A stretch of 64,000 bases of DNA from positions 1-64,000 of the forward strand of contig NZ_NFKF01000001.1 of assembly GCF_002160255.1 (NCBI RefSeq). The letters run 5' to 3'. Of the stretch, positions 33,154 to 44,336 are shown piece after piece (position 1 is the stretch's first letter; each line of letters starts with the position of its first letter). The notes beneath the pieces are model-generated. The model saw nothing but the letters and a program-made list of their open reading frames with translations, did no database searches and was not told the DNA's origin. This DNA comes from Olsenella sp. An188 (lineage in GTDB: Bacteria; Actinomycetota; Coriobacteriia; Coriobacteriales; Atopobiaceae). Made by a program: the position numbers and the translations under genes.

Positions 33154-34203
33154 CTAGTACACCATGCCCATGGCCTCGCGGACCTCGTCGAGCGTGGCCG
33201 CGGCGATCTCGCGGGCGCGGCGGTTGCCCTCGGCGAGGACGTCGGTGACGTAGCCCATGTCCTTCTCGATCTGGGCGCGCCGCTCGCGGATGGGGGCGAA
33301 GTAGTCGTTGACGGCCTGGGTCACGTACCTCTTGAGCTGGCCTGCGCCGCCCATGCCGATCTCCTCGGCAATCTCGCGCGGGTCGCGCCCGGTGCAGATG
33401 CCGGCGGTGGTGAGCAGGCCGGAGATCTCCGGGCGGCTCTCCGGGTCGAAGGTGATCATGCGCTCGGAGTCGCTCTTGGACTTCTTGATGAGCCTGGCCG
33501 TCTCCTCCGCAGTCATGGAGATGGAGATCGCGTTGCCGTAGGACTTGCTCATCTTGCGCCCGTCGAGGCCCGGCAGCAGCGGCGTGGAGGTGAGGAGCCC
33601 CACCGGCTCCGGGAAGACGTGGGCGTAGCGCTCGTTGAAGCGGCGGGCGATCTTGTCGGTGATCTCGATGTGGGGCAGCTGGTCGCGGCCCACGGGCACG
33701 ATGTTGCCCTTGCAGAACAGGATGTCGCAGGCCTGGTGCACCGGGTAGGTGAGCAGAAGGCCCGTGAGCGCGTGGCCGGAGGCCTCCTGCTCGGCCTTGA
33801 CGGTGGGGTTGCGCTCCATCTCTGCCTCGGTCACGAGGGAGAGGAACGGCAGCATGAGCTGGTTGAGCTCGGGCACCGCGGAGTGCGTGAAGATCATCGT
33901 CTTGGCCGGGTCGATGCCGCAGGCCAGGTAGTCGATGACCATGTTGTAGACGTTGTCGCGGATGTGCTCGGTGGTGTCGCGGTCGGTGATGACCTGGTAG
34001 TCCGCGATGATGATGTTGGTGTTGACGCCCATGTCCTGCAGGCGCACGCGGTCCACGAGCGTGCCGAAGTAGTGGCCCAGGTGCAGCCGGCCCGTCGGGC
34101 GGTCGCCCGTGAGCATGGTGTAGTTCCCCGCGTTGGCGAGAAGGTCGGCGTGGACCTCGTCGCTCCTTCGCTTTGCCGCCTCGTAGCTTCCCTCGTTGGG
34201 CAT
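33154..34203 (-). CDS. trpS: Tryptophanyl-tRNA synthetase
   Basis: A 349-residue class-I synthetase charging tRNA-Trp. The HIGH-type motif is in GRLHLGHYFGTLVD (HLGH), and the KMSKS motif is present as GLDGRKMSKSYGNAI. The tryptophan pocket region GDRPTGRLHLGH and the DYQVITDRD segment fit TrpRS. ATG 34203 (MPNEGSYEAAK) follows GGGAG. There is no leader or T-box in front: the gap to the divergent cyclo-ligase gene is 134 bases and lacks T-box signatures. Confidence 0.97.
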   Translation of the reverse strand: MPNEGSYEAAKRRSDEVHADLLANAGNYTMLTGDRPTGRLHLGHYFGTLVDRVRLQDMGVNTNIIIADYQVITDRDTTEHIRDNVYNMVIDYLACGIDPAKTMIFTHSAVPELNQLMLPFLSLVTEAEMERNPTVKAEQEASGHALTGLLLTYPVHQACDILFCKGNIVPVGRDQLPHIEITDKIARRFNERYAHVFPEPVGLLTSTPLLPGLDGRKMSKSYGNAISISMTAEETARLIKKSKSDSERMITFDPESRPEISGLLTTAGICTGRDPREIAEEIGMGGAGQLKRYVTQAVNDYFAPIRERRAQIEKDMGYVTDVLAEGNRRAREIAAATLDEVREAMGMVY

Positions 34204-34292
34204 GATCGCTCCCGTTTCTCTCGCGCGTGCTCAGTCGGCTCACTATGGTACGGCAAACCGGCGCCGCTGTGGACCGAGCGTCAGCGCAACCC

Positions 34293-34301
34293 TGCTAGAA
34301 T
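34293..34301 (+). promoter_or_regulatory. Extended -10 promoter of the cyclo-ligase gene
   Basis: TGC directly followed by TAGAAT, 36 bases before GTG 34338, forms an extended -10. No -35 consensus is visible. The same nine-base TGCTAGAAT precedes glf (20557) and the cyclophilin gene (50986). Confidence 0.5.
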
Positions 34302-34337
34302 GGAGCAATTGCAGTCCGAGACGCGAGGGGAGGTCCC

Positions 34338-34940
34338 GTGGCAAGCTCATACGGCACGGACGCCGACAAGAGCTCCCTCAGGAGCAACTACCTCAGCGTC
34401 CGTCGGACCATCCCCGCCGCGAGTCGCGTCTCCTCCGACTCCGCCATCCGCGCGCAGCTGGAGCGCTTCGAGCTCTTCTCGCACGCCCGTACGGTGCTTT
34501 CCTACGTCTCCTTCGGGGCCGAGGTGGACACGCGCGAGCTCATCTGCGCCCTCATCGCCGGGGGCCGTCGCGTGGCCGTGCCGCGCGTGGACGGGGAGCG
34601 CCGCCGCATGGACTTCTGCGAGATCGGCGGCCTCGGCGAGCTCCTGCCGGGCGCCCACGGCATCCTCGAGCCGGACGAGGACGCGCCGGCGCTCACGGTG
34701 CCGGACATGGTTGGCTCGGTCTGCCTGGTCCCCGGGCTCATCTTCGACGGCGCGGGGCACCGCGTGGGCTACGGCGGCGGCTACTACGACCGGTTCCTGG
34801 CGTTCTACCCGGGTGACAAGATCGGCCTGGCGAGAACCACGATGCTCTCGTCAAACCCGCTGCCGCACGACGGGACCGACGTCCCGGTAGACTTCATCTG
34901 CACCGAGGGCGGCGTCTGGGGCTGCCGCGCGTATCGCTGA
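34338..34940 (+). CDS. 5-formyltetrahydrofolate cyclo-ligase
   Basis: A 200-residue enzyme that recycles 5-formyl-THF to methenyl-THF using ATP. N-terminal KSSLRSNYLSVRRTIPAASR supplies the conserved basic helix. The C-terminal signature LVPGLIFDGAGHRVGYGGGYYDRFL is the family's strongest motif and is intact. It starts at GTG 34338 behind GGGGAGG. It converges with the EIIB-AroQ gene, with only 6 bases between stops. Confidence 0.95.
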   Translation: MASSYGTDADKSSLRSNYLSVRRTIPAASRVSSDSAIRAQLERFELFSHARTVLSYVSFGAEVDTRELICALIAGGRRVAVPRVDGERRRMDFCEIGGLGELLPGAHGILEPDEDAPALTVPDMVGSVCLVPGLIFDGAGHRVGYGGGYYDRFLAFYPGDKIGLARTTMLSSNPLPHDGTDVPVDFICTEGGVWGCRAYR

Positions 34941-34946
34941 TCCTGG

Positions 34947-35882
34947 CTAGATGCCGAGGTGCGCCGCCATGTCGAACATGGCCTTGCGATAGCCCTCCAC
35001 GCCCATGCCGGCGATCGTCTCGAAGCACGCCGCGCGGATGTAGCTCACCTTGCGGAACTCCTCGCGCTCGTCCACCTTGGAGATGTGGATCTCGATCATC
35101 GGGAGGCCGACCGCCTTGGCGGCGTCGAGGATGGCGATCGAGGTGTGCGTGTAGGCGCCGGGGTTGATGACGATGCCGGCGTAGGAGCCGTAGGCGTCCT
35201 GGATGGCGTCGATGAGGTCGCCCTCGTGGTTGGACTGGAAGCACGTGCACTCGGCGAAGCCTGCGTCGCGCGCCGCCTCGTGGCAGATGCGCAGCATGTC
35301 CTGGTAGGAGTCGTGCCCGTAGATGTCGGGCTCGCGGATGCCGAGCATGTTGATGTTGGGCCCGTTGATCACGAGCACGCGCGCGGGTGCCGCGGCGCGT
35401 GCGGGGGAGGTCTCGTCGGGACCTGCCGCGACGCCCTCGTCGGCCGCAGGTGCGTCCATCGTGTCGAGCAGGCTCACCAGGTCCTCGACGCTCGTCTCGT
35501 CCTCCTCGTCCCGGGCGGAGTCTCCCTCCCCGGCGGCGAGCGCTGCCCCGAGCAGCGGGTTCTGGGTGATGTGGACGTGGAGCGGGGCCGCCGGGGCGCC
35601 GGAGCCGGCGAAGTCGTCGTCCACGCCCTCGATGCCGGTGAGCTTGACGAGCGCCTCGTGCACGGCCTCGACCTTGCCGGGGCCAAAGACGACCTCGATG
35701 CCGTTCTCGCCGCGCTTGACAAAGCCGAGGACCCCGTGCGCCGCGGAGAGCTGGTCGGTGTCAACGAGGGAGGGGTTCTCCGTCTTGATCCTCAGGCGCG
35801 TCATGCAGATGTCGTTGGCAGTGACGTTGTCCCGGCCGCCCACTGCGGCGAGGACCTCCTCCGCTATCTGCTGTCTGTCCAC
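34947..35882 (-). CDS. aroQ: PTS EIIB domain fused to type II 3-dehydroquinate dehydratase
   Basis: A 311-residue two-domain protein. Residues about 4-84 form a glucose-type PTS EIIB domain: EEVLAAVGGRDNVTANDICM then TRLR aligns with the EIIB phosphorylation site, and Cys26 is the phosphocysteine equivalent. GVLGFV and GIEVVFGPGKVEAVHEALVKL complete the fold. An acidic, Ala/Asp/Glu-rich linker (85-168) joins it to a complete type II dehydroquinase (169-311): INGPNINMLGIREPDIYGHD (catalytic Tyr188, lid Arg183), INPGAYTHTSIAI and EIHISKVDEREEF (His266). I chose GTG 35882 because of the GGGAAGG site; GTG 35933 adds 17 basic residues. It supplies the dehydratase step missing from the aro operon upstream. 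Confidence 0.92.
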   Translation of the reverse strand: MDRQQIAEEVLAAVGGRDNVTANDICMTRLRIKTENPSLVDTDQLSAAHGVLGFVKRGENGIEVVFGPGKVEAVHEALVKLTGIEGVDDDFAGSGAPAAPLHVHITQNPLLGAALAAGEGDSARDEEDETSVEDLVSLLDTMDAPAADEGVAAGPDETSPARAAAPARVLVINGPNINMLGIREPDIYGHDSYQDMLRICHEAARDAGFAECTCFQSNHEGDLIDAIQDAYGSYAGIVINPGAYTHTSIAILDAAKAVGLPMIEIHISKVDEREEFRKVSYIRAACFETIAGMGVEGYRKAMFDMAAHLGI

Positions 35883-35977
35883 GTCGCGACCCTTCCCGTC
35901 GTCGAATCGCGAGCGGGAGCCCCGTCTCCTCACTCACCACATTTCCCGACACATGCTCTGGCCTAGATTCCCTGCAC

Positions 35978-35983
35978 AGTATA
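35978..35983 (-). promoter_or_regulatory. Candidate -10 element of the EIIB-aroQ gene
   Basis: On the minus strand this reads TATACT, 96 bases before GTG 35882. Just upstream (in transcription order) a GGGGG/CCCCC hairpin at about 35984-36004 and an ACCGC/GCGGT hairpin at about 36013-36026 follow the aroEK stop. This suggests partial termination of the operon and a separate promoter for the fusion gene. Confidence 0.5.
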
Positions 35984-36060
35984 CGGGGGTCGCCCGACGC
36001 CCCCGCCTCAGACCGCCGAGCGGTCCCGCAGACGGCGAGAAGCGCCGCAAAACTGCACGT

Positions 36061-37347
36061 TTAAAGCACAAGCAGCCTGCGGGCGAGCTCTGCGTCGCCT
36101 GCGGGCGATCCCGTGCACGGGAGCGTCACGTCCGCCCACGAGCGGTAGGCGTCCATCCGCTCCGCGGCGAGGCGCTCGACCCCCTTGGTCTGGGACATGG
36201 GCCTCCCGTCGTCCGAGAGCTCGGCGATAGGCCGGTCGAGAAACACCACGCGTGCGTTCTGCCGGATGAGGTCGCGGTTCTCCTCGCGCGTGACGACCCC
36301 GCCGCCGCAGGCGAGCACGAGTCCCGAGCGCGCGGCGTAGCGGCCGGTGACCTCGGTCTCGACGGCACGGAACGCCTCCTCGCCGTCCTCGCGGATGATC
36401 TGCGCCGCCGAGCGCCCGCACTCGAGCGCGATGGCCTCGTCGACGTCCACGAAGGGCCTCCCCAGCAGGCGGGCGAGCGCGCGGCCGCAGCTCGACTTCC
36501 CCGCACCCGGCATGCCGATGAGCACCACGTTCTCCGTCTGGGCGCGAATCTGGCCCTCGACCTCGGCCACGAGCGAGTCGTCGAGGTTGCGCCCCTGGAA
36601 GAGCTCGCTTGCGTAGAGCGCCTGGGCGACAAGCATGGCGAGCCCGCTCTCGGCGGGCAGCCCCAGTCGCTCCGCCGCGAGCAGAAGGCCGGTCCTGCGC
36701 GGGTTGTAGACCACGTCGAGGACGGCGACGAGCCCGGTGAGGGCGGAGAGGGTCGCCTCGTCGAGCGGCGAGGCGGGGCAGTTGGGGAACATCCCGACGG
36801 GCGTTGTGTTCACGACGAGCGCGGCGTCGGCGTGGCGCCGGGCGAGCCCCTCGTAGGTCTCCTTTCCGCTGCGCGAGACGGTGACCACGTCCATCCCGGC
36901 GTACTCCTCCAGCGCGAGGCGGACGGCCTGCGACGCCCCGCCCGAGCCGAGCACGAGCGCCTTGCGGGAGCCGAGCGCCTCGCTCACGCTCGAGCCCAGC
37001 TCGCGCCGGCAGAAGCGGGTGAGCATCCAGAAGAACCCGAGGACGTCGGTGTTCTCGGCGAGGATCGACCCGTCCTCCCGGCGTACGAGCGTGTTCGCCG
37101 CGCCGAGCCGCTCGACGCGCGGGCTGCGCTCGTTGGCGAGCTCGGCCGCGCGGCGCTTGTAGGGGATGGTCACGTTGAGGCCGCACCACGCCCCGTCGCG
37201 CACGAACGGGGCCACCTCGTCGGGCTCGAGCTCGTGGAGCGCGTAGGGGGCGGACCCCAGGCGCTCGTGGATCTGCCGCGACCAGCTGTGTCCGAGCGTG
37301 CGCCCGACGAGGCCGAACGGGGCGGCGTCGAGGTCCTTCTCGCCCAT
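36061..37347 (-). CDS. aroE-aroK: Bifunctional shikimate dehydrogenase / shikimate kinase fusion
   Basis: A 428-residue fusion of two consecutive pathway steps. Residues about 1-265 are AroE: GLVGRTLGHSWSRQIH, NVTIPYKRRA (catalytic Lys), ENTDVLGF and the NADP loop LVLGSGGASQAV. Residues about 272-428 are AroK: VVLIGMPGAGKSSCGRALA (Walker A), VDVDEAI, FRAVETEVT and CGGGVVTRE. It reduces 3-dehydroshikimate and phosphorylates the product. The ATG at 37347 directly follows the pheA stop (TAGATG). Fusion order AroE-AroK is unusual compared with separate genes. Confidence 0.96.
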   Translation of the reverse strand: MGEKDLDAAPFGLVGRTLGHSWSRQIHERLGSAPYALHELEPDEVAPFVRDGAWCGLNVTIPYKRRAAELANERSPRVERLGAANTLVRREDGSILAENTDVLGFFWMLTRFCRRELGSSVSEALGSRKALVLGSGGASQAVRLALEEYAGMDVVTVSRSGKETYEGLARRHADAALVVNTTPVGMFPNCPASPLDEATLSALTGLVAVLDVVYNPRRTGLLLAAERLGLPAESGLAMLVAQALYASELFQGRNLDDSLVAEVEGQIRAQTENVVLIGMPGAGKSSCGRALARLLGRPFVDVDEAIALECGRSAAQIIREDGEEAFRAVETEVTGRYAARSGLVLACGGGVVTREENRDLIRQNARVVFLDRPIAELSDDGRPMSQTKGVERLAAERMDAYRSWADVTLPCTGSPAGDAELARRLLVL

Positions 37348-38499
37348 CTAGAGCACCTCCGTGTAGCTTCCGAGGTAGCGGAACTCCTGTGCGAGGCCGC
37401 CGACCGTGGAGAGGAGGGAGGCGAACTCGGGGGATGCCGCGGGGCAGTCGACGTCGAAGTAGAACATGAACTCGAAGTCGCGCTCCGGGATGGGGCGGCT
37501 CTCGAGCTTGAGGATGTTGACGTCGAGCGCGTAGAACTTTGCGAGGAGCTTGTAGAGCGTGCCCGGCTCGTGCGGCAGGACGATCATGAGCGAGGCGCGG
37601 TCGGCCCCGGGGTAGACCTCGAGTCGCTTGGAGATGCAGGCGAAGCGCGTGTAGTTGTTGTCGCGGTCCTGGACGCTCGCGCGCAGGACCTCGAGCCCGT
37701 AGAGGTCGGCGCAGGGGCGCGACGAGAGCGCGGCGACGTCGTCGCGGCCGGACTCCGCGACGCGCTTGGCGGCGACGGCGGTGTTCTCGCACACGTGCAC
37801 GCGGACGTCGGGCAGGCCCGAGAGGAACTCGGCGCACTGGTTGACGGCCTGCTCGTGGCTGTAGATGTCGCGGATCGCCTCGAGGCGCGCGCCCGGGCGG
37901 GCGAGCAGGTTGTGGTCGACCTTGACGCGCGTGGTGCGCACCACGTAGAAGGAGTGCTCCATCATCAGGTCGAAGACCTGGTTGACCGAGCCGGCCGTGG
38001 AGTTCTCCAGCGGCAGGACGCCGTAGTCGGCGAGGCCCTGCTCGACGGAGCGAAAGACGCCGTCGAAGGTGGTGGCGTAGCTGATGGTGGGGTGGCGGAA
38101 GATGCGCTCGGCGGCTATCTGCGAGTAGGCGCCCTCGACCCCCTGGCAGGCCACGTGGGCGGAGGGAGGGAAGAGCTCGGGCGTGCTCGCGCGGGCGGCC
38201 TCGACGCGCGCGAGCGTGGGGTCCTCGTTCGTGTCGGCGAGAAGCGCGTGCTGGCGCGAGCGCGAGGCCTCCATGAGGAGCTCCATCAGCACCTGCGCGT
38301 AGGTGGCGAGGTCCTCCGGGGCGCGTCGCGCGGCGTCGGCCACCTTCGCCCGCTCGCGCGCGGGGTCGAAGACGCGCATGCCGTGCTCGCGCTTGTAGGC
38401 GGCGACGCCCTCGGAGACCTCCGCGCGCCGGCCGAAGAGGCGGAAGATCTCCGCGTCAATCTCGTCTATCTGCTGTCTCAGCTCGGAGAGCTCAGCCAT
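37348..38499 (-). CDS. pheA: Chorismate mutase / prephenate dehydratase (P-protein)
   Basis: A 383-residue bifunctional enzyme making phenylpyruvate from chorismate. An N-terminal AroQ-class mutase (about 1-90: LSELRQQIDEIDAEIFRLFGRRAEVSEGVAAYKREHG) is followed by prephenate dehydratase (about 105-285; ACQGVEGAYSQIAA, LPLENSTAGSV, NNYTRFACIS with the TRF motif). A C-terminal ACT domain (about 293-383; PHEPGTLYKLLAKF and the ESRP phenylalanine-binding motif) completes it. The ACT domain predicts feedback inhibition by phenylalanine. ATG 38499 has AAGGA upstream. It is preceded by a 273-base structured gap after aroC. Confidence 0.97.
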   Translation of the reverse strand: MAELSELRQQIDEIDAEIFRLFGRRAEVSEGVAAYKREHGMRVFDPARERAKVADAARRAPEDLATYAQVLMELLMEASRSRQHALLADTNEDPTLARVEAARASTPELFPPSAHVACQGVEGAYSQIAAERIFRHPTISYATTFDGVFRSVEQGLADYGVLPLENSTAGSVNQVFDLMMEHSFYVVRTTRVKVDHNLLARPGARLEAIRDIYSHEQAVNQCAEFLSGLPDVRVHVCENTAVAAKRVAESGRDDVAALSSRPCADLYGLEVLRASVQDRDNNYTRFACISKRLEVYPGADRASLMIVLPHEPGTLYKLLAKFYALDVNILKLESRPIPERDFEFMFYFDVDCPAASPEFASLLSTVGGLAQEFRYLGSYTEVL

Positions 38500-38537
38500 G
38501 TCGTTCCTTCCTCTCATGTACGTACCCGTGCGTTACC

Positions 38538-38635
38538 GGGCGGCGGGGCGGGAAGACCCGGCGCTCGGACAGCTTCGCGCGCACAGGACGCGCGCTGCAG
38601 AACTCGCGGCGGGCCTTCCCGCCCCGCCGCAGCCC
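38538..38635 (+). repeat. Hairpin element, copy 1, between aroC and pheA
   Basis: Outer stem of 16 perfect pairs: GCGGCGGGGCGGGAAG (38540-38555) with its complement at 38615-38630. Inside are the conserved strand CGGCGCTCGGACAGCTT (38559-38575), an inner CGCGCG/CGCGCG stem (38576-38581, 38589-38594) with a 7-base loop, and the conserved strand AGAACTCGCGGCGG (38599-38612). Copy 2 lies 42 bases away in the opposite orientation. The core strands are identical in both copies, while the stems differ. Confidence 0.8.
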
Positions 38636-38676
38636 GTCACGTTCTCGCTCGCCCCGGGTCAGGTGATACCGCAAGA

Positions 38677-38764
38677 GGGTCGGCGGCAAAAGGTCCGCCG
38701 CGAGTTCTTGCCGAGCGCTCTTCTCGGCAAGCTGTCCGAGCGCCGGACCTTTTGCCGCCGACCC
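38677..38764 (-). repeat. Hairpin element, copy 2 (opposite orientation)
   Basis: Outer stem of 21 perfect pairs, 38677-38697 with 38744-38764 (left arm begins GGGTCGGCGGCAAAAGGTCC). The inner stem is TTGCCGAG/CTCGGCAA (38708-38715, 38723-38730) with a 7-base loop. On the minus strand it carries the same core strands as copy 1, CGGCGCTCGGACAGCTT (38729-38745) and AGAACTCGCGGCGG (38695-38708). Because the orientation is inverted, the two elements can also pair with each other. Confidence 0.8.
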
Positions 38765-38772
38765 CCGACGAC

Positions 38773-39891
38773 TCACTCCTGCGGCGGCCAGGCGAGAAGC
38801 GCGTCGGCAACGGCGAGCGCGCAGACGGCCTCGACCACGGGGACGGCGCGGATCACGGCGGTGGTGTCGTGGCGCCCGTGGACCTTCAGCCGCGCCGGCT
38901 CCATGCTTGCGAGGTCGACCGAGTCCTGCTCCACCATGACGCTCGAGATGGGCTTGAACGCGCAGCGCACGAGCAGGGGAGCCCCGGTGGTGATGCCGCC
39001 GAGGATGCCTCCGGCGTTGTTGGTGCGCGGCACGCAGGCGCCGTCCCGGACCTCGTAGGGGTCGTTGTTCTCGGTCCCCCGCATGCGGGCCGCGGCAAAG
39101 CCGCGGCCGAACTCGACGCCCTTGACCGCGGGGATGCCAAAGAGGGCCCGGGCCATCACGTTCTCGATGCCGTCGAACATCGGCGAGCCCACGCCCGCGG
39201 GCAGCCCGCAGCACGCGCACTCGACGACGCCGCCCACGGTGTCCCTCTCGGCGCGCGCGGCCATGACGGCATCGATCATGCGCTGGCCCGCCTCGACGTC
39301 GAGGGTGGGCATGCGACGGCCGTCCGCGAGCGCGGACATCTCGCGGGCGAGCGCCTCGCGCGCCTCGACGGAGTTGTCGAGCGCCGAGAAGGGCGCGTCC
39401 TCGATGCCCGCGAGCTCGGCCACGTGGGCGCGGACGCTCACGCCGCGCGTGGCGAGCCACTGCAGCGCGAGGGCGCCGGCGGCGCACAGGGGGCCGGTGA
39501 GGCGGCCCGAGAAGTGCCCGCCGCCGGGGACGTCCTGCGCGCCGTGCCACTTGGCCCACGCGGTGAAGTCGGCGTGGCCCGGGCGAGGAACGTCGAGCAG
39601 GTTGCTGTAGTCCTGGGAGCGCGTGTTGGTGTTCTCGATGATGACGGCGAGCGGCGCCCCGCACGTCTCGCCGTCGACGTTGAGGCCGGAGACGATGCGC
39701 GGGAGGTCGGGCTCCCTGCGCGGGGTGCCCCACGGGTCGTTGCCGGGCGCTCGGCGCGCCACGAAGGCGGCGAGCGCGTCCTGGTCGACCGGCATGCCGG
39801 CGGGAAGGCCCTCGACCACGCAGCCGACGGCGGGGGAGTGGGACTGCCCGAAGACGCTCACGGTGAGGGCGGTGCCAAGCGAAGAGGGCAT
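38773..39891 (-). CDS. aroC: Chorismate synthase
   Basis: A 372-residue FMN-dependent enzyme making chorismate from EPSP. It opens with LTVSVFGQSHSPAVGCVVEGLPAG (first signature), and later has NTRSQDYSNL, RPGHADFTAWAKWHG, GGGHFSGRLT and NNAGGILGGITTGAPLLVR. The active-site histidines in SHS and HADFT are present. ATG 39891 overlaps the aroA stop by one base (TGATG). In transcription order it is followed by the double hairpin gap and then pheA. Confidence 0.97.
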   Translation of the reverse strand: MPSSLGTALTVSVFGQSHSPAVGCVVEGLPAGMPVDQDALAAFVARRAPGNDPWGTPRREPDLPRIVSGLNVDGETCGAPLAVIIENTNTRSQDYSNLLDVPRPGHADFTAWAKWHGAQDVPGGGHFSGRLTGPLCAAGALALQWLATRGVSVRAHVAELAGIEDAPFSALDNSVEAREALAREMSALADGRRMPTLDVEAGQRMIDAVMAARAERDTVGGVVECACCGLPAGVGSPMFDGIENVMARALFGIPAVKGVEFGRGFAAARMRGTENNDPYEVRDGACVPRTNNAGGILGGITTGAPLLVRCAFKPISSVMVEQDSVDLASMEPARLKVHGRHDTTAVIRAVPVVEAVCALAVADALLAWPPQE

Positions 39892-41207
39892 CAGCTCTCC
39901 TTTCTCACGTTGCCGCCGAGCGAGGAGAGGTCCTCGAAGAAGGCGGGGTAGGACTTGTTGACGCACTCGGCCCCGAGGATGGTCACCGGTCCCGCGCAGC
40001 GCCCGGCCATCACCGCGGCCATCATGGCGATGCGGTGGTCGTTCGCCGCGTCGACGGTTCCGCCGGCGAGCTCGCGCGCCCCCTCGATGACGAGGCCGTC
40101 GTCGAGGGCCGTCGCCCGGCCCCCGAGAGAGTTGATGGCCGCGGAGACGGTGGCGATTCGGTCCGACTCCTTGAGGCGCAGCCTGGCGGCCCCGGTGATG
40201 CGCGTGACGCCCTCCGCGAACGCGGCGACGGCGGCGAGCGGCGGGACGAGGTCGGGGCAGCTCGAGACGTCGAGCTCGCGCCCCGCGAGGCCGTCGTGGG
40301 CGCACGCGGCGCCCTCCGCCCCGCGCAGCACGCGCGCCCCCAGAAGCGCCAGCGCCGCGAGCGCCTGGCGGTCTCCCTGCGCGCTTCTCACGTCAAGCCC
40401 GCGGACGGCGACCCCGTCGTCCGAGAGCGCCCCGGCGGCGAGCCAGAAGGCGGCGTTTGACCAGTCGCCGCCGACCGACACCGTACCCGGCGAGACGAGG
40501 CCGTCCGACCCGGAGACGACGTAGGAGCGCGCGGGGCCGTCCGGGCCCTCGACGCGCCCCTCGTCGACGCCGACGCCGAAGCGCCTGAGCGCGGACACGG
40601 TGATGTCTATGTAGGGGAGCGACTCCACCGGCTCGCTCACGACGACCTCGACGGGGGCGGCCAGCAGGGGGGCGGCCAGCAGGAGCCCGCTCACGTACTG
40701 CGAGGAGACGTTCCCGGGAAGCGAGAAGCGCCCCGCCCGCAGGCGGCCGCCCACGCGAAGCGGCATCCTGCCCTGGGGCGAGAGCTCCGTCCCGTGCGCG
40801 ACGAGCTCCTCGTAGAGCGGCGAGAGCGGGCGCTCCGGGAGCCTCCCGTGCCCGGTGAGGCTGGCGTCGCAGCCGAGGGCGGCCGCAACCGGCAGCAGGA
40901 AGCGCAGCGTGGATCCGGACTCCCCGCAGTCGAGCAGGGCCCCGCGGGCCGCCTCGGGGATGTTGTCGGTGGCCGAGGTCCCGCGCACGGGCACCACGCG
41001 GAAGCCGCGCCTCGTGCGGGTGACGCGCGCGCCGAGCGCCGAGAGGCAGCGCGCGGTCGCGTCGATGTCCTCGGACGTGGTGGTGCAGTCGATGTCCGTC
41101 GTCCCGGGGGCGAAGGCGGCGCAGATCAGCAGGCGGTGCGCCTCGGACTTGGAGGACGGCGCGGTGACCTCCCCGGCGAGGGGGCCGGGCTCTACGGTGA
41201 CGTTCAA
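39891..41207 (-). CDS. aroA: 3-phosphoshikimate 1-carboxyvinyltransferase (EPSP synthase)
   Basis: A 438-residue enzyme joining PEP to shikimate-3-phosphate. Motifs: APSSKSEAHRLLICAAF, LDCGESGSTLRFLLPVAA (substrate-binding loop, Gram-positive style), NVSSQYVSGLLLAAPLL, GGDWSNAAFWLAAGAL, RLRLKESDRI and ANDHRIAMMAAV. The start is TTG 41207 behind CTGGAGG, since the protein reads LNVTVEPGPLAGEVTAPSSK from that point. A 110-base gap separates it from aroB upstream and includes GGCGAGAAACGCCGG. Confidence 0.95.
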   Translation of the reverse strand: MNVTVEPGPLAGEVTAPSSKSEAHRLLICAAFAPGTTDIDCTTTSEDIDATARCLSALGARVTRTRRGFRVVPVRGTSATDNIPEAARGALLDCGESGSTLRFLLPVAAALGCDASLTGHGRLPERPLSPLYEELVAHGTELSPQGRMPLRVGGRLRAGRFSLPGNVSSQYVSGLLLAAPLLAAPVEVVVSEPVESLPYIDITVSALRRFGVGVDEGRVEGPDGPARSYVVSGSDGLVSPGTVSVGGDWSNAAFWLAAGALSDDGVAVRGLDVRSAQGDRQALAALALLGARVLRGAEGAACAHDGLAGRELDVSSCPDLVPPLAAVAAFAEGVTRITGAARLRLKESDRIATVSAAINSLGGRATALDDGLVIEGARELAGGTVDAANDHRIAMMAAVMAGRCAGPVTILGAECVNKSYPAFFEDLSSLGGNVRKES

Positions 41208-41317
41208 GTGGCCTCCAGAGTCGTGGGTTTGCTTGCGGACTATGCTAGCGCGGCGCGCCTCGGCGGTGCAGGCGGCGTCACAGGCGAGAAACGCCGGCGC
41301 GTGGCGCGGCGGGTGCG

Positions 41318-42421
41318 CTACCGTCCCAGGGCGACCAGCTCGGCGAGCTCGTCGAGGCTGACGCGGCGCACCTCGCAGCGGCCGACCTCGGCGGGCACGA
41401 CCACGTTGACGCCGTCGCCGCGGCGCTTCTTGTCGTGTGCCATGTAGCGCATGAGCACGTCTGCGCCCAGCTCCGAGCCCGTGGGCAGGCCGTGGGCGGC
41501 CACGCAGGCCTCGACGCGCCCGGCCGTCTCGTCCGAGCACCAGCCGCGCCGCGCGGAGGCGCGCGCCATCATGCAGAGTCCCGCCGCGACGCACGAGCCG
41601 TGCCCGAGCGTGAAGTCGCTCGCGGCCTCGATGGCGTGGCCGATCGTGTGCCCGAGGTTGAGCGTCTGGCGCACGCCGCTCTCGCGCTCGTCCGCGTCGA
41701 CCACGTCGCGCTTGATGGCCACGTTGCGGGCCACCACGTCGGCGAGCCGCGCCTCGTCGAGCTGGTCGGCCGTGATCGGGCGCGCAATAAGCTCGTCGAG
41801 CAGCGCGGCGTCAGCGAGCACCGCATGCTTGATCACCTCTCCGCAGGAGTCGCGGAAGAGCTCGGGCGAGACGCTCGCGAGGCAGCGCACGTCCGCCACC
41901 ACGGCAGCGGGCTGCCAGAAGGCGCCGGCGAGGTTCTTGCCCGCGGCGAGGTCCACGGCGGTCTTTCCGCCCACGGAGGAGTCCACCATCGCCAGAAGCG
42001 ACGTGGGCACCTGCACCACGGCAACGCCGCGCAGGTAGAGGGCCGCGGCAAGTCCCGCCATGTCGCCGGTCACGCCGCCGCCCAGGGCCACCACCACGTC
42101 GGCGCGCGTGAGCTCGCGCTCGGCCAGCGCCTCGAGGATCTCCCCGAGCGTGGCGAGCCGCTTGCTCTGCTCGCCGGCGGCGAACACGACGCGCTCGGCG
42201 ACGCTATAGCCCGCCCCCGCCAGCGACGCCTCGGCCGCGTCCGCGTAGAGCGGGGCCACGTTGGTCTCGCTCACCACGCAGCAGCGGGCGCCGCCGGCCG
42301 CGCTGCGGGCAATGCGCCCCAGCTCAGAGAGCACGCCGGCGCCCACGGTCACGTCATAGTCCGCCGACGCCGCGCTCACGTGCACGACGCGGGGCGCCGC
42401 GGCAAGGCCCTTCTCGCTCAT
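41318..42421 (-). CDS. aroB: 3-dehydroquinate synthase
   Basis: A 367-residue NAD- and zinc-dependent enzyme cyclising DAHP. Motifs include ALGGGVTGDMAGLAAALYLRG, VPTSLLAMVDSSVGGKTAVDL, FRDSCGEVIKHAVL (zinc Glu region), NLGHTIGHAIEAASDF (zinc His) and GHGSCVAAGLCMM. ATG 42421 overlaps the tyrA stop by four bases (ATGA), so it is translationally coupled. Confidence 0.97.
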   Translation of the reverse strand: MSEKGLAAAPRVVHVSAASADYDVTVGAGVLSELGRIARSAAGGARCCVVSETNVAPLYADAAEASLAGAGYSVAERVVFAAGEQSKRLATLGEILEALAERELTRADVVVALGGGVTGDMAGLAAALYLRGVAVVQVPTSLLAMVDSSVGGKTAVDLAAGKNLAGAFWQPAAVVADVRCLASVSPELFRDSCGEVIKHAVLADAALLDELIARPITADQLDEARLADVVARNVAIKRDVVDADERESGVRQTLNLGHTIGHAIEAASDFTLGHGSCVAAGLCMMARASARRGWCSDETAGRVEACVAAHGLPTGSELGADVLMRYMAHDKKRRGDGVNVVVPAEVGRCEVRRVSLDELAELVALGR

Positions 42422-43311
42422 CTGCCCTCCACCTCGCGCTTGATGCGGTCGCCCTCGGCGAGAAGCGCCTCGAGGCGCGCTGCGTTGCGCTCGTCGATGG
42501 CGTCCTTGTACGCCTGCAGGCTCTCGATGATGGTGCCGATCTCCTCCGAGAGGAAGTCGGCGTTGTCCAGGAAGAGCTCGGTCCACATGGGCGCGTTCAG
42601 GCGCGCCACGCGCGTGAGGTCCTTGTACGAGCCGGCCGAGAAGCCCTTGTGCTCGCGGGCGGTGGGGCTCTTCACGTAGGCGTTGGAGACCACGTGGGCG
42701 AGCTGGGAGGTGAAGGCGATGATGCGGTCGTGCTCCTCGGCGGTGGCCAGCGTGAAGCTCCCGAAGGCGCAGGGCTCGAGAAGGCCCTTCAGGCGCTCGA
42801 GCACCTCGACGCGGGCGAAGTCGTCCATCGCGGGCGGCACCACCACGAGCGGCGCGCCCCTGAACATCGTGGCGCGCGAGTGCGCGAAGCCCGAGTACTG
42901 GGTGCCGGCCATGGGGTGGCAGCCCACGAAGGTGAAGGGGCGCCCCGCGCAGATGGCCTCGCAGCGCTCGCAGATGACGCGCTTCACGCCAACGGTGTCG
43001 ATGACGATGGCGCCGGGCGCCACCAGGTGCGCGTTTGCCTCGAGCCACTCGATGGCCGATGCGGGGTAGCCGGCGAGGATGATGAGCTCGCAGGTGCCGA
43101 CGGTGGCCTCGTCGAGCTCGCCGGCCACGGTCTCGATCATCGCGAGCTCGAGCGTGGAGCGCGTGCGGTTCCAGGCGAAGACCTCCACGCCCGCGGCGGC
43201 GAAGGCGCGCGCGAACGAGCCGCCCATGAGGCCGAGCCCCACGATGCCGACGCGTCCGGGCGCGAACGTCGACGTCTCGCCCGCGCCGCCTGCGTTCTTC
43301 TCGCCAGCCAC
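42418..43311 (-). CDS. tyrA: Prephenate dehydrogenase
   Basis: A 297-residue NAD(P)-dependent enzyme converting prephenate to hydroxyphenylpyruvate for tyrosine. The nucleotide loop is VGIVGLGLMGGSFARAF; HPMAGTQYSGFAHSRATMFRG holds the catalytic His region. QLAHVVSNAYV and GSYKDLTRVARLNAPMWTELFLDN fit the dimer domain. No ACT domain is present, so tyrosine feedback is not evident here. It starts at GTG 43311, overlapping the aroF stop by one base (TAGTG). The first codons include GGCGAGAAG. Confidence 0.95.
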   Translation of the reverse strand: MAGEKNAGGAGETSTFAPGRVGIVGLGLMGGSFARAFAAAGVEVFAWNRTRSTLELAMIETVAGELDEATVGTCELIILAGYPASAIEWLEANAHLVAPGAIVIDTVGVKRVICERCEAICAGRPFTFVGCHPMAGTQYSGFAHSRATMFRGAPLVVVPPAMDDFARVEVLERLKGLLEPCAFGSFTLATAEEHDRIIAFTSQLAHVVSNAYVKSPTAREHKGFSAGSYKDLTRVARLNAPMWTELFLDNADFLSEEIGTIIESLQAYKDAIDERNAARLEALLAEGDRIKREVEGR

Positions 43312-44336
43312 TATGCCTCCTCGATCGGCGCGCAGACGGCCTCGCGGATGAGCGCGATGCGGCGCATGGCGTCCTCGAACTGCCTTGGCGTGAGGGCCTG
43401 GGCGCCGTCGGACCAGGCGGCCTGCGGGCAGTCGTGGACCTCGACCTCCAGGCCGTCGGCGCCGGCCGCGGTGGCTGCGTAGGCGGCGGGGCGCACGTAG
43501 CGCGTGTAGCCGGTGGAGTGGCTCGGGTCGGCGATGACGGGCAGGTGCGTGAGGTGGTGCAGCACCGGCACGGCGTTCACGTCGAAGGTGTTTCTCGTGC
43601 GCGTCTCGAAGGTGCGGATGCCGCGCTCGCACAGCATCACGTCGGCGTTGCCCTCGCTCATCACGTACTCGGCACTCATGAGCAGCTCGTCTATGGTCTC
43701 GGACATGCCGCGCTTGAGCAGCACGGGGCGCCCGGCGCGGCCCACCTCGCGAAGCAGGGGGAAGTTCTGGGCGTTGCGGGCCCCGATCTGCAGGACGTCC
43801 ACGCCCTTCTCGACGAACATGGCCACGTCGCGCGGGTCCATGACCTCGGTCACGACCGGCATGTCCAGCTCGGCGCCGGCCTCCATGAGAAGGTCGAGGC
43901 CGCGCTCGCCCATGCCCTGGCTCGTGTAGGGGGAGGTGCGGGGCTTGAACGCGCCGCCGCGCAGCATCGTGGCGCCGGCGGCCTTGACCGCGCGCGCGAT
44001 CTTGATGAGGTTGTCGCCCTCCACCGAGCAGGGCCCGGCGATGACCTGGAAGTTGCCGCCGCCCACGAGCACGCCGTGGCCGCAGTCGACGACGGTGTCC
44101 TCGGGGTGGAACTTGCGGTTGGCGAGCTTGTAGGGCTCGGTCACGCGCTGGACGCGCTCGACGATGTCCATGCTCTCCAGCAGGAACGGGTCGATGCGCG
44201 TGGTGTCGCCGATGATGCCGACGATGGTCTCGTTGTCTCCCTGGGAGACGTTGGTCTTGAAGCCGCGGCCCTCGATCCAGCTCACGAACTGGTCGAGCTG
44301 CTCGGGGGTGGCGGTCTCCTTGATGACTGTTATCAC
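43311..44336 (-). CDS. aroF: 3-deoxy-7-phosphoheptulonate synthase (type I-beta, with N-terminal regulatory domain)
   Basis: A 341-residue DAHP synthase, the entry enzyme of the shikimate pathway. An N-terminal ferredoxin-like domain (about 1-70: MITVIKETATPEQLDQFVSWIEGRGFKTNVSQGDNETIVGIIGD) matches the regulatory domain of Thermotoga-type enzymes and allows feedback control by aromatic amino acids. The barrel has VIAGPCSVEG, GGAFKPRTSPYTSQG, RGMSETIDELLMSAEYV, and DPSHSTGY. GTG 44336 follows CAGGAGG. First gene of the operon; a minus-strand TGCTAGCAT lies about 46 bases upstream. Confidence 0.95.
   Translation of the reverse strand: MITVIKETATPEQLDQFVSWIEGRGFKTNVSQGDNETIVGIIGDTTRIDPFLLESMDIVERVQRVTEPYKLANRKFHPEDTVVDCGHGVLVGGGNFQVIAGPCSVEGDNLIKIARAVKAAGATMLRGGAFKPRTSPYTSQGMGERGLDLLMEAGAELDMPVVTEVMDPRDVAMFVEKGVDVLQIGARNAQNFPLLREVGRAGRPVLLKRGMSETIDELLMSAEYVMSEGNADVMLCERGIRTFETRTRNTFDVNAVPVLHHLTHLPVIADPSHSTGYTRYVRPAAYAATAAGADGLEVEVHDCPQAAWSDGAQALTPRQFEDAMRRIALIREAVCAPIEEA

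Follow-up and report, generated by a model that had tools for sequence, protein, structure and literature searches.

A PTS EIIB domain joined to type II dehydroquinase across the Atopobiaceae is retained where the dehydroquinase has decayed or been lost

EIIB domains of the PTS are already known to act outside transport. In E. coli, dephosphorylated EIICB-Glc (PtsG) binds the repressor Mlc (PMC3901232), a case in which the phosphorylation state of an EIIB domain is read by a non-transport partner, and EIIB-containing PRD regulators use EIIB as a PTS input outside transport (PMC8560693, PMC12680359). The nearest precedent in the libraries searched for an EIIB on a metabolic enzyme is a triosephosphate isomerase-EIIB protein (NF011497), which also combines a glucose-type EIIB domain with a soluble enzyme, and for which no study was among the open-access literature matches listed. 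Among the open-access literature matches listed, by their titles and the starts of their abstracts, there was no description of an EIIB-dehydroquinase fusion, nor of an EIIB that sits on a shikimate enzyme and outlives it.

The PTS and the shikimate pathway are both consumers of PEP, and within the 64,000-nucleotide stretch of the Olsenella sp. An188 genome analysed here (contig NZ_NFKF01000001.1, positions 1 to 64,000; hereafter the window) we identified a shikimate-pathway enzyme, AroQ, joined to a PTS EIIB domain. The protein differs from each of the described systems. PtsG is a membrane transporter, whereas EIIB-AroQ is soluble and enzyme-linked, although the fold of its EIIB domain matches that of the E. 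coli domain in 3bp8; PRD regulators carry DNA-binding and PRD domains, neither of which was found above the Pfam cut-off in EIIB-AroQ. Sucrose/MurNAc-type EIIBC transporters (TIGR01996 and NF007152, the two best NCBIfam EIIB matches) share its EIIB type and phosphocysteine motif, but the fusion is without an EIIC or membrane part, is joined to AroQ, has Glu63 in place of Gln and possesses a different hairpin. The triosephosphate isomerase-EIIB family involves another enzyme in another domain order, and is matched by the EIIB part alone (26.5 bits against a cut-off of 485). For the AroQ half, the closest solved relative among the matches listed is the type II dehydroquinase of C. glutamicum (8idr, 8idu), whose 153-residue chains, unlike the window protein, have no EIIB extension.

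The gene (34947..35882, minus strand) begins with a GTG codon at 35882, ends with a stop at 34947-34949 and encodes 311 aa. The initial annotation had read this interval as an EIIB domain fused to a complete AroQ through an acidic linker of about 80 residues, and a domain search bore this out on the minus strand: PF00367 (PTS_EIIB) matches residues 8-41 at 42.3 bits (cut-off 27; E 4.8e-11) and PF01220 (DHquinase_II) matches residues 168-302 at 181 bits (E 1.2e-53), these being the only Pfam domains above cut-off in the protein, with no EIIC domain detected in the same search. The AroQ half, a type II 3-dehydroquinase (residues 167-311; 34950..35384, minus strand), also exceeds the threshold of the NCBIfam aroQ equivalog TIGR01088 (173.9 bits, cut-off 169.85), and retains all nine positions assigned as catalytic by comparison with studied type II enzymes (N176, R183, Y188, N240, H246, E264, H266, R273 and R277). 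Structure prediction for the full-length protein, as a monomer, gave confident EIIB and AroQ domains connected by a low-confidence linker, and the best 50 of 1230 structure matches to this model were type II dehydroquinases throughout. A chance open reading frame or wrong strand was considered and rejected: the plus strand is open across 34947-35882, but antisense to a minus-strand gene conserved family-wide. No Rfam match was found in 34000-44000, and a 21-base stretch upstream of the gene occurs once in the window. Approximately 40 bases at 35883-35933, and at the equivalent place in related loci, look conserved across the genus while reading frames there differ between species; they are possibly a leader or ribosome-binding element.

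Judged from the genome sequences surveyed, the fusion is a family-wide trait of the Atopobiaceae, a family of gut bacteria. In 124 of the 140 genomes of the family, a profile search recovered the two halves in a single frame (by hand count, 116 with one match and 8 with two matches in the same frame), which rules out an assembly accident or a pair of genes joined by a frameshift, the latter a finding that would have told against the initial annotation. The Coriobacteriia setting proposed for the fusion is right. Three genomes are split cases, at contig edges (G024), in two frames (G091) or on two contigs (G134), and the remaining 13 have no AroQ match in this search. Of the named loci, 76 out of 80 carry the fusion; the exceptions are a contig end (L122), a split locus on the same contig as G091 with halves in different frames (L084), a stub without AroQ (L124) and L128, which is an EIIBC transporter. 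One alignment took 34 sequences, with contig-edge, N-bearing and unfused loci left out. Outside the Atopobiaceae, 23 genomes of the same order yielded 16 AroQ genes, none of which carries an EIIB.

The EIIB domain (residues 1-85; 35628..35882, minus strand) belongs to the glucose superfamily according to PF00367, modelling and Foldseek. Modelled alone it reaches a pLDDT of 89.5, and Foldseek aligned it with the solved E. coli EIIB folds 3bp3, 3bp8 (the Mlc-EIIB complex) and 1o2f (the EIIA-EIIB complex) at TM 0.70-0.74 by query. Its phosphoacceptor motif, C26-M-T-R-L-R31 (35790..35807, with Cys26 at 35805-35807, minus strand), follows the C-x-T-R-x-R pattern, and C26, T28, R29 and R31 are invariant in all 124 fused or stub sequences examined, so that the intact phosphotransfer site claimed at Cys26 holds across these sequences and the loss of this residue from homologues, which would have told against it, was not seen. 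Cys26 would be the residue that accepts phosphate. A second signature is Glu63 (35694..35696, minus strand): this position is Glu in 123 of the 124 fused or stub EIIBs and Asp in the other, versus Gln in 17 of 19 transporter EIIBs sampled, relative to which the hairpin of the fused clade is also altered. Within this genus of the window the linker has a median dN/dS of 0.71, compared with 0.14 and 0.17 for EIIB and AroQ. A tree was built from 20 transporter rows (two identical, and all from a convenience sample) together with 45 EIIBs out of the 124 from fusions or stubs; in it, the fused EIIBs form one clade against the transporters (support 97/90) that groups with transporter EIIBs L255 and L128 (95/91), with weak support for L255 as the closer neighbour (96/27). 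L128 itself sits in an apparent MurNAc cluster, judged by eye.

Joining the two domains, the acidic linker (residues 86-166; 35385..35627, minus strand) is probably disordered, its predicted structure having pLDDT block means of 41-57 over residues 91-160. It nevertheless contains a recurrent amphipathic segment, SVEDLVSLLDTMD (residues 131-143; 35454..35492, minus strand), the pattern of which was found in 96 of 123 sequences (G022 was left out for a run of N) against 6.0 expected from shuffles; the excess is descriptive, since the pattern was picked after the linkers had been read. The strict pattern is absent from all five AroQ-less stubs, which have a similar LLxxLD-like segment instead. 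A second segment, LHVHIT (residues 101-106; 35565..35582, minus strand), follows a hydrophobic-x-V-x-I pattern that recurs in other linkers, those of the stubs included, as seen by eye and without a chance control.

EIIB-aroQ is the eighth and last gene in a same-strand row of eight aromatic-pathway genes, for which gene order and strand suggest a single operon. On the minus strand, it is directly preceded by an aroE-aroK fusion (36061..37347; PF08501 and PF01202), then, moving upstream, by pheA, encoding a chorismate mutase-prephenate dehydratase (37348..38517; PF01817 and PF00800), aroC for chorismate synthase (38773..39903; PF01264), aroA for EPSP synthase (39891..41189; PF00275), aroB for 3-dehydroquinate synthase (41318..42190; PF01761 and PF24621), tyrA for prephenate dehydrogenase (42418..43254; PF02153 and PF20463) and the gene for DAHP synthase, the PEP-consuming first step (43311..44336; PF00793 and PF18152), the upper ends given for aroA, aroB and tyrA being those of the Pfam matches. 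A convergent 5-formyltetrahydrofolate cyclo-ligase gene comes after EIIB-aroQ, and the window's genome yielded no type I dehydroquinase.

Closer examination of the AroQ half across the family revealed a set of genomes in which it has been separated from its EIIB in evolutionary fate. The nine catalytic positions were surveyed in 124 of the 140 genomes, comprising 119 fusions and 5 stubs (fusions G138, G139, G141, G142 and G144, splits G024, G091 and G134, and eight AroQ-less genomes were left out). AroD, a type I dehydroquinase unrelated to AroQ, occurs in 24 of the 140 genomes, confined to two genera, and in all 24 the AroQ half is either missing one to seven of the nine catalytic positions (20 genomes) or deleted (4). 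Among loci without AroD, 98 of the 100 examined retain all nine positions; the two exceptions, G124 and G162, come from genomes 77% and 73% complete. The catalytic set is thus incomplete in 26 of the 124 loci, 21 decayed and 5 without AroQ, many of the decayed cases being metagenome-assembled genomes. In all 26, EIIB keeps 13 of 13 near-invariant residues, versus 24-42 of 45 for AroQ, or 0-2 where it is deleted. The stubs are open frames of 145-162 aa consisting of EIIB and linker, and PF00367 was found in each of the four, out of five, that were run in Pfam. The stub of L124 lies between aroE-K and the cyclo-ligase gene, and those of G154 and G162 come directly after aroE-K.

Stub EIIBs show a mean pN of 0.152 versus a pS of 0.63 over 10 pairs, and a median dN/dS of 0.03 over 4 pairs only. 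In genomes that keep a decayed AroQ, constraint on EIIB is somewhat looser, with dN/dS medians of 0.22 (group g50) and 0.33 (g54, 5 pairs) against 0.12 (g54), 0.22 (g30) and 0.14 (the window's genus) where AroQ is intact. The decayed AroQ halves have values of 0.33-0.36, compared with 0.12-0.17 in better-sampled intact groups; as they are still constrained, the AroQ fold may matter. Since EIIB is kept where AroQ has decayed or gone, the domain probably fulfils a separate function beside the aromatic pathway, and its constraint in genomes where AroQ is altered or deleted and AroD is present means that PTS control of AroQ catalysis cannot be its sole function.

These lineages do not represent many independent events. 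In an AroE-AroK tree of 79 rows (L107 and L115 were dropped as too short, and named loci outside both AroD genera were labelled 'intact' without individual check), the AroQ-loss lineages fall on one side of a branch with support 93, which indicates a single replacement event with repeated decay, within which deletion of AroQ needs at least two changes; the Fisher value obtained for these cases consequently overstates independence. In G148 (L194; 76% complete) the linker resembles those of the AroQ-loss clade, but AroQ is intact and no AroD was found; this genome is possibly a basal member showing the order of events. The AroD frames of G158 and G154 (L138, L139) are about 577 aa and, by eye, run into a second part resembling shikimate dehydrogenase; in G154 this part is also matched by an AroE query, and the AroE-AroK fusion is present too. 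The AroD frame of G155 (L171) has the same length.

Also identified were eight genomes, 57-100% complete, with neither AroQ nor AroD. Seven of them gave no AroE-AroK fusion match (three had a kinase-like match only) and no EIIB stub was recognised in them; in the eighth, G066, AroE-AroK is cut at a contig end. The absence of stubs where AroE-AroK is absent fits a role in the aromatic pathway, but may alternatively be plain co-deletion of one locus. Two short frames (L311 and L312) in pathway-less G106, which is listed at 100% completeness and has many transporter EIIBs, were considered as stub candidates and set aside: they look transporter-type, are without the fused-clade signature, and one has a stop.

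We further examined which PTS partners accompany the fused EIIB. In a 60-genome set, EI, EIIA_1 and EIIB_1 co-occur in the same 40 genomes, these being all 37 Atopobiaceae members and three from a fusion-less sister family. Nine members of the window's genus (85-99% complete, with the gene of G024 interrupted by contig ends) have no EIIB_1 other than the fused one, and all nine retain EI together with one to three EIIA_1 copies. No PF02378 EIIC was found in one of them, G005. In the remaining eight there are 26 EIIC matches (one, L308, a weak fragment); all 26 were read, none has PF00367, and their top NCBIfam families are those for lactose/cellobiose, fructose or mannitol. Partnership with an orphan EIIC in these eight genomes was therefore rejected, all 26 EIICs being of other types. 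Stand-alone EIIAs confirmed by PF00358 number two in the window's genome and two in G025. The window's genome also encodes two glucose-type transporters, each of which includes an EIIB. The sucrose-type EIIBC among them (L052:3656-4972, on contig C15 of the same genome) is missing about 40 EIIB residues after the phosphoacceptor motif, which passes almost directly into EIIC; this shortened protein may be inactive or may borrow another EIIB. The initial annotation had suggested that the fused domain might tether AroQ to a membrane EIIC. Given nine sole-EIIB genomes without a glucose-type EIIC, this is unlikely as a general role, and it survives as a possibility for the window's genome, where one of the two glucose-type transporters has a shortened EIIB. 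On contig C15, a small HPr-like protein (L052:11093-11653) lies beside a fructokinase-like gene, both recognised by eye. HPr usually has GLHARPA where this protein carries GLHVQLA, and it is possibly a degenerate or regulatory HPr.

From these observations we put at roughly an even chance the proposal that the EIIB-linker unit is a transporter-free PTS signalling module joined to AroQ and tied to aromatic synthesis. The sequences themselves establish the fusion, its retention across the family, the invariant phosphotransfer site, an intact EIIB beside decayed or deleted AroQ, and genomes that keep EI and EIIA with the fused EIIB as their sole glucose-type EIIB; phosphorylation of Cys26, the signal it would carry, the partner and the direction in which control runs are inferred. 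Phosphate from PEP would pass through EI, HPr and a soluble glucose-type EIIA to Cys26, and where no glucose-type EIIC drains it, the level of Cys26 phosphorylation would track the PEP-to-pyruvate state and PTS traffic, making that level, and not sugar transport, the output. A partner that belongs to the aromatic pathway or controls it would then read the state of Cys26, perhaps via the linker helix, much as dephosphorylated PtsG of E. coli is read when it binds Mlc. In most species AroQ would carry the module and also work as an enzyme, but its catalysis would not be something the module needs; control of AroQ in cis may be ancestral, and would be unnecessary where AroQ has decayed or gone. 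The fuller version of this proposal, to which we assign somewhat less than an even chance, holds that what is conserved is the module itself. It would form a dedicated PTS output arm for anabolism, served by a soluble EIIA of its own, and through phosphocysteine signalling would link aromatic biosynthesis, which consumes PEP, to the PEP and sugar state of the cell; AroQ would be a replaceable carrier that has turned into a pseudoenzyme scaffold or been lost in one clade. Against the module proposal, EIIA_1 could be retained for other reasons, and the outlasting of AroQ by EIIB is one evolutionary replacement. The relaxation of EIIB beside decayed AroQ, the constraint still acting on those AroQ halves, the intact AroQ of G148, the shortened EIIB in a transporter of the window's genome and the absence of the strict linker pattern from the stubs also weigh against it. 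Of the suggestion that PTS state is reported to chorismate synthesis, a signal from the PTS to aromatics remains the leading idea, but AroQ catalysis as its only target does not, because EIIB outlives AroQ.

The most direct alternative is that EIIB phosphorylation alters the activity or oligomer state of AroQ, so that the PTS sets dehydroquinase flux in cis. Wherever AroQ was matched in the family it is joined to EIIB, the three split cases aside, a full catalytic set is present at 98 of the 124 loci surveyed, and AroQ sits with DAHP synthase and other pathway genes, all as direct control would have it; the persistence of EIIB and linker where AroQ is catalytically altered or absent, and a linker that evolves fast and is modelled at low confidence, nonetheless make this reading rather unlikely. 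As the exceptions form one clade, cis control could still be the ancestral role. That the domain is instead a soluble EIIB serving in trans a sugar transporter whose EIIC is without an EIIB or has a defective one, AroQ being a passive carrier, would accommodate the grouping of the fused clade with transporter EIIBs L255 and L128, the retention of the whole phosphotransfer motif and the shortened EIIB of the sucrose-type EIIBC. Such service is hard to reconcile with the nine sole-EIIB genomes, in which EIICs are either absent (G005) or of other types, and with the change of Gln63 to Glu and the altered hairpin, which set the fused EIIBs apart from sampled transporter EIIBs; it also leaves the position among aromatic genes unexplained, and we accord it a low probability.

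A further reading, likewise of small probability, takes the protein as a phosphate sink or buffer that sets how far EIIA is phosphorylated, the aromatic genes contributing steady expression and nothing more. In agreement with a sink, genomes that lack a glucose-type transporter have EIIA_1, which is stand-alone in G025, the one of them examined, and no downstream acceptor was seen, but neither the recurrent linker segment nor the absence of stubs from the seven genomes without AroE-AroK would be explained by it. Finally, drift can fix fusions and the linker is fast-evolving, as expected of a non-functional or purely structural extension arising from a chance fusion; phosphotransfer residues invariant in 124 of 124 sequences, the low median dN/dS of EIIB in the window's genus and the survival of EIIB beyond AroQ render this very improbable.

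The decayed AroQ halves L135 and L111 (of G152 and G128) still score 118 and 98.5 bits on PF01220, far above its cut-off of 23.3, so that automatic annotation would probably call both active dehydroquinases, a trap for annotation of the family. Genomes that have EIIA and the fused EIIB without a glucose-type transporter offer a clean test of PTS signalling minus transport, and the AroD-bearing clade constitutes a natural experiment in which the role of EIIB is separated from dehydroquinase activity. Were the PTS and the shikimate pathway indeed linked directly through one protein in the Atopobiaceae, this would represent a new kind of control point.
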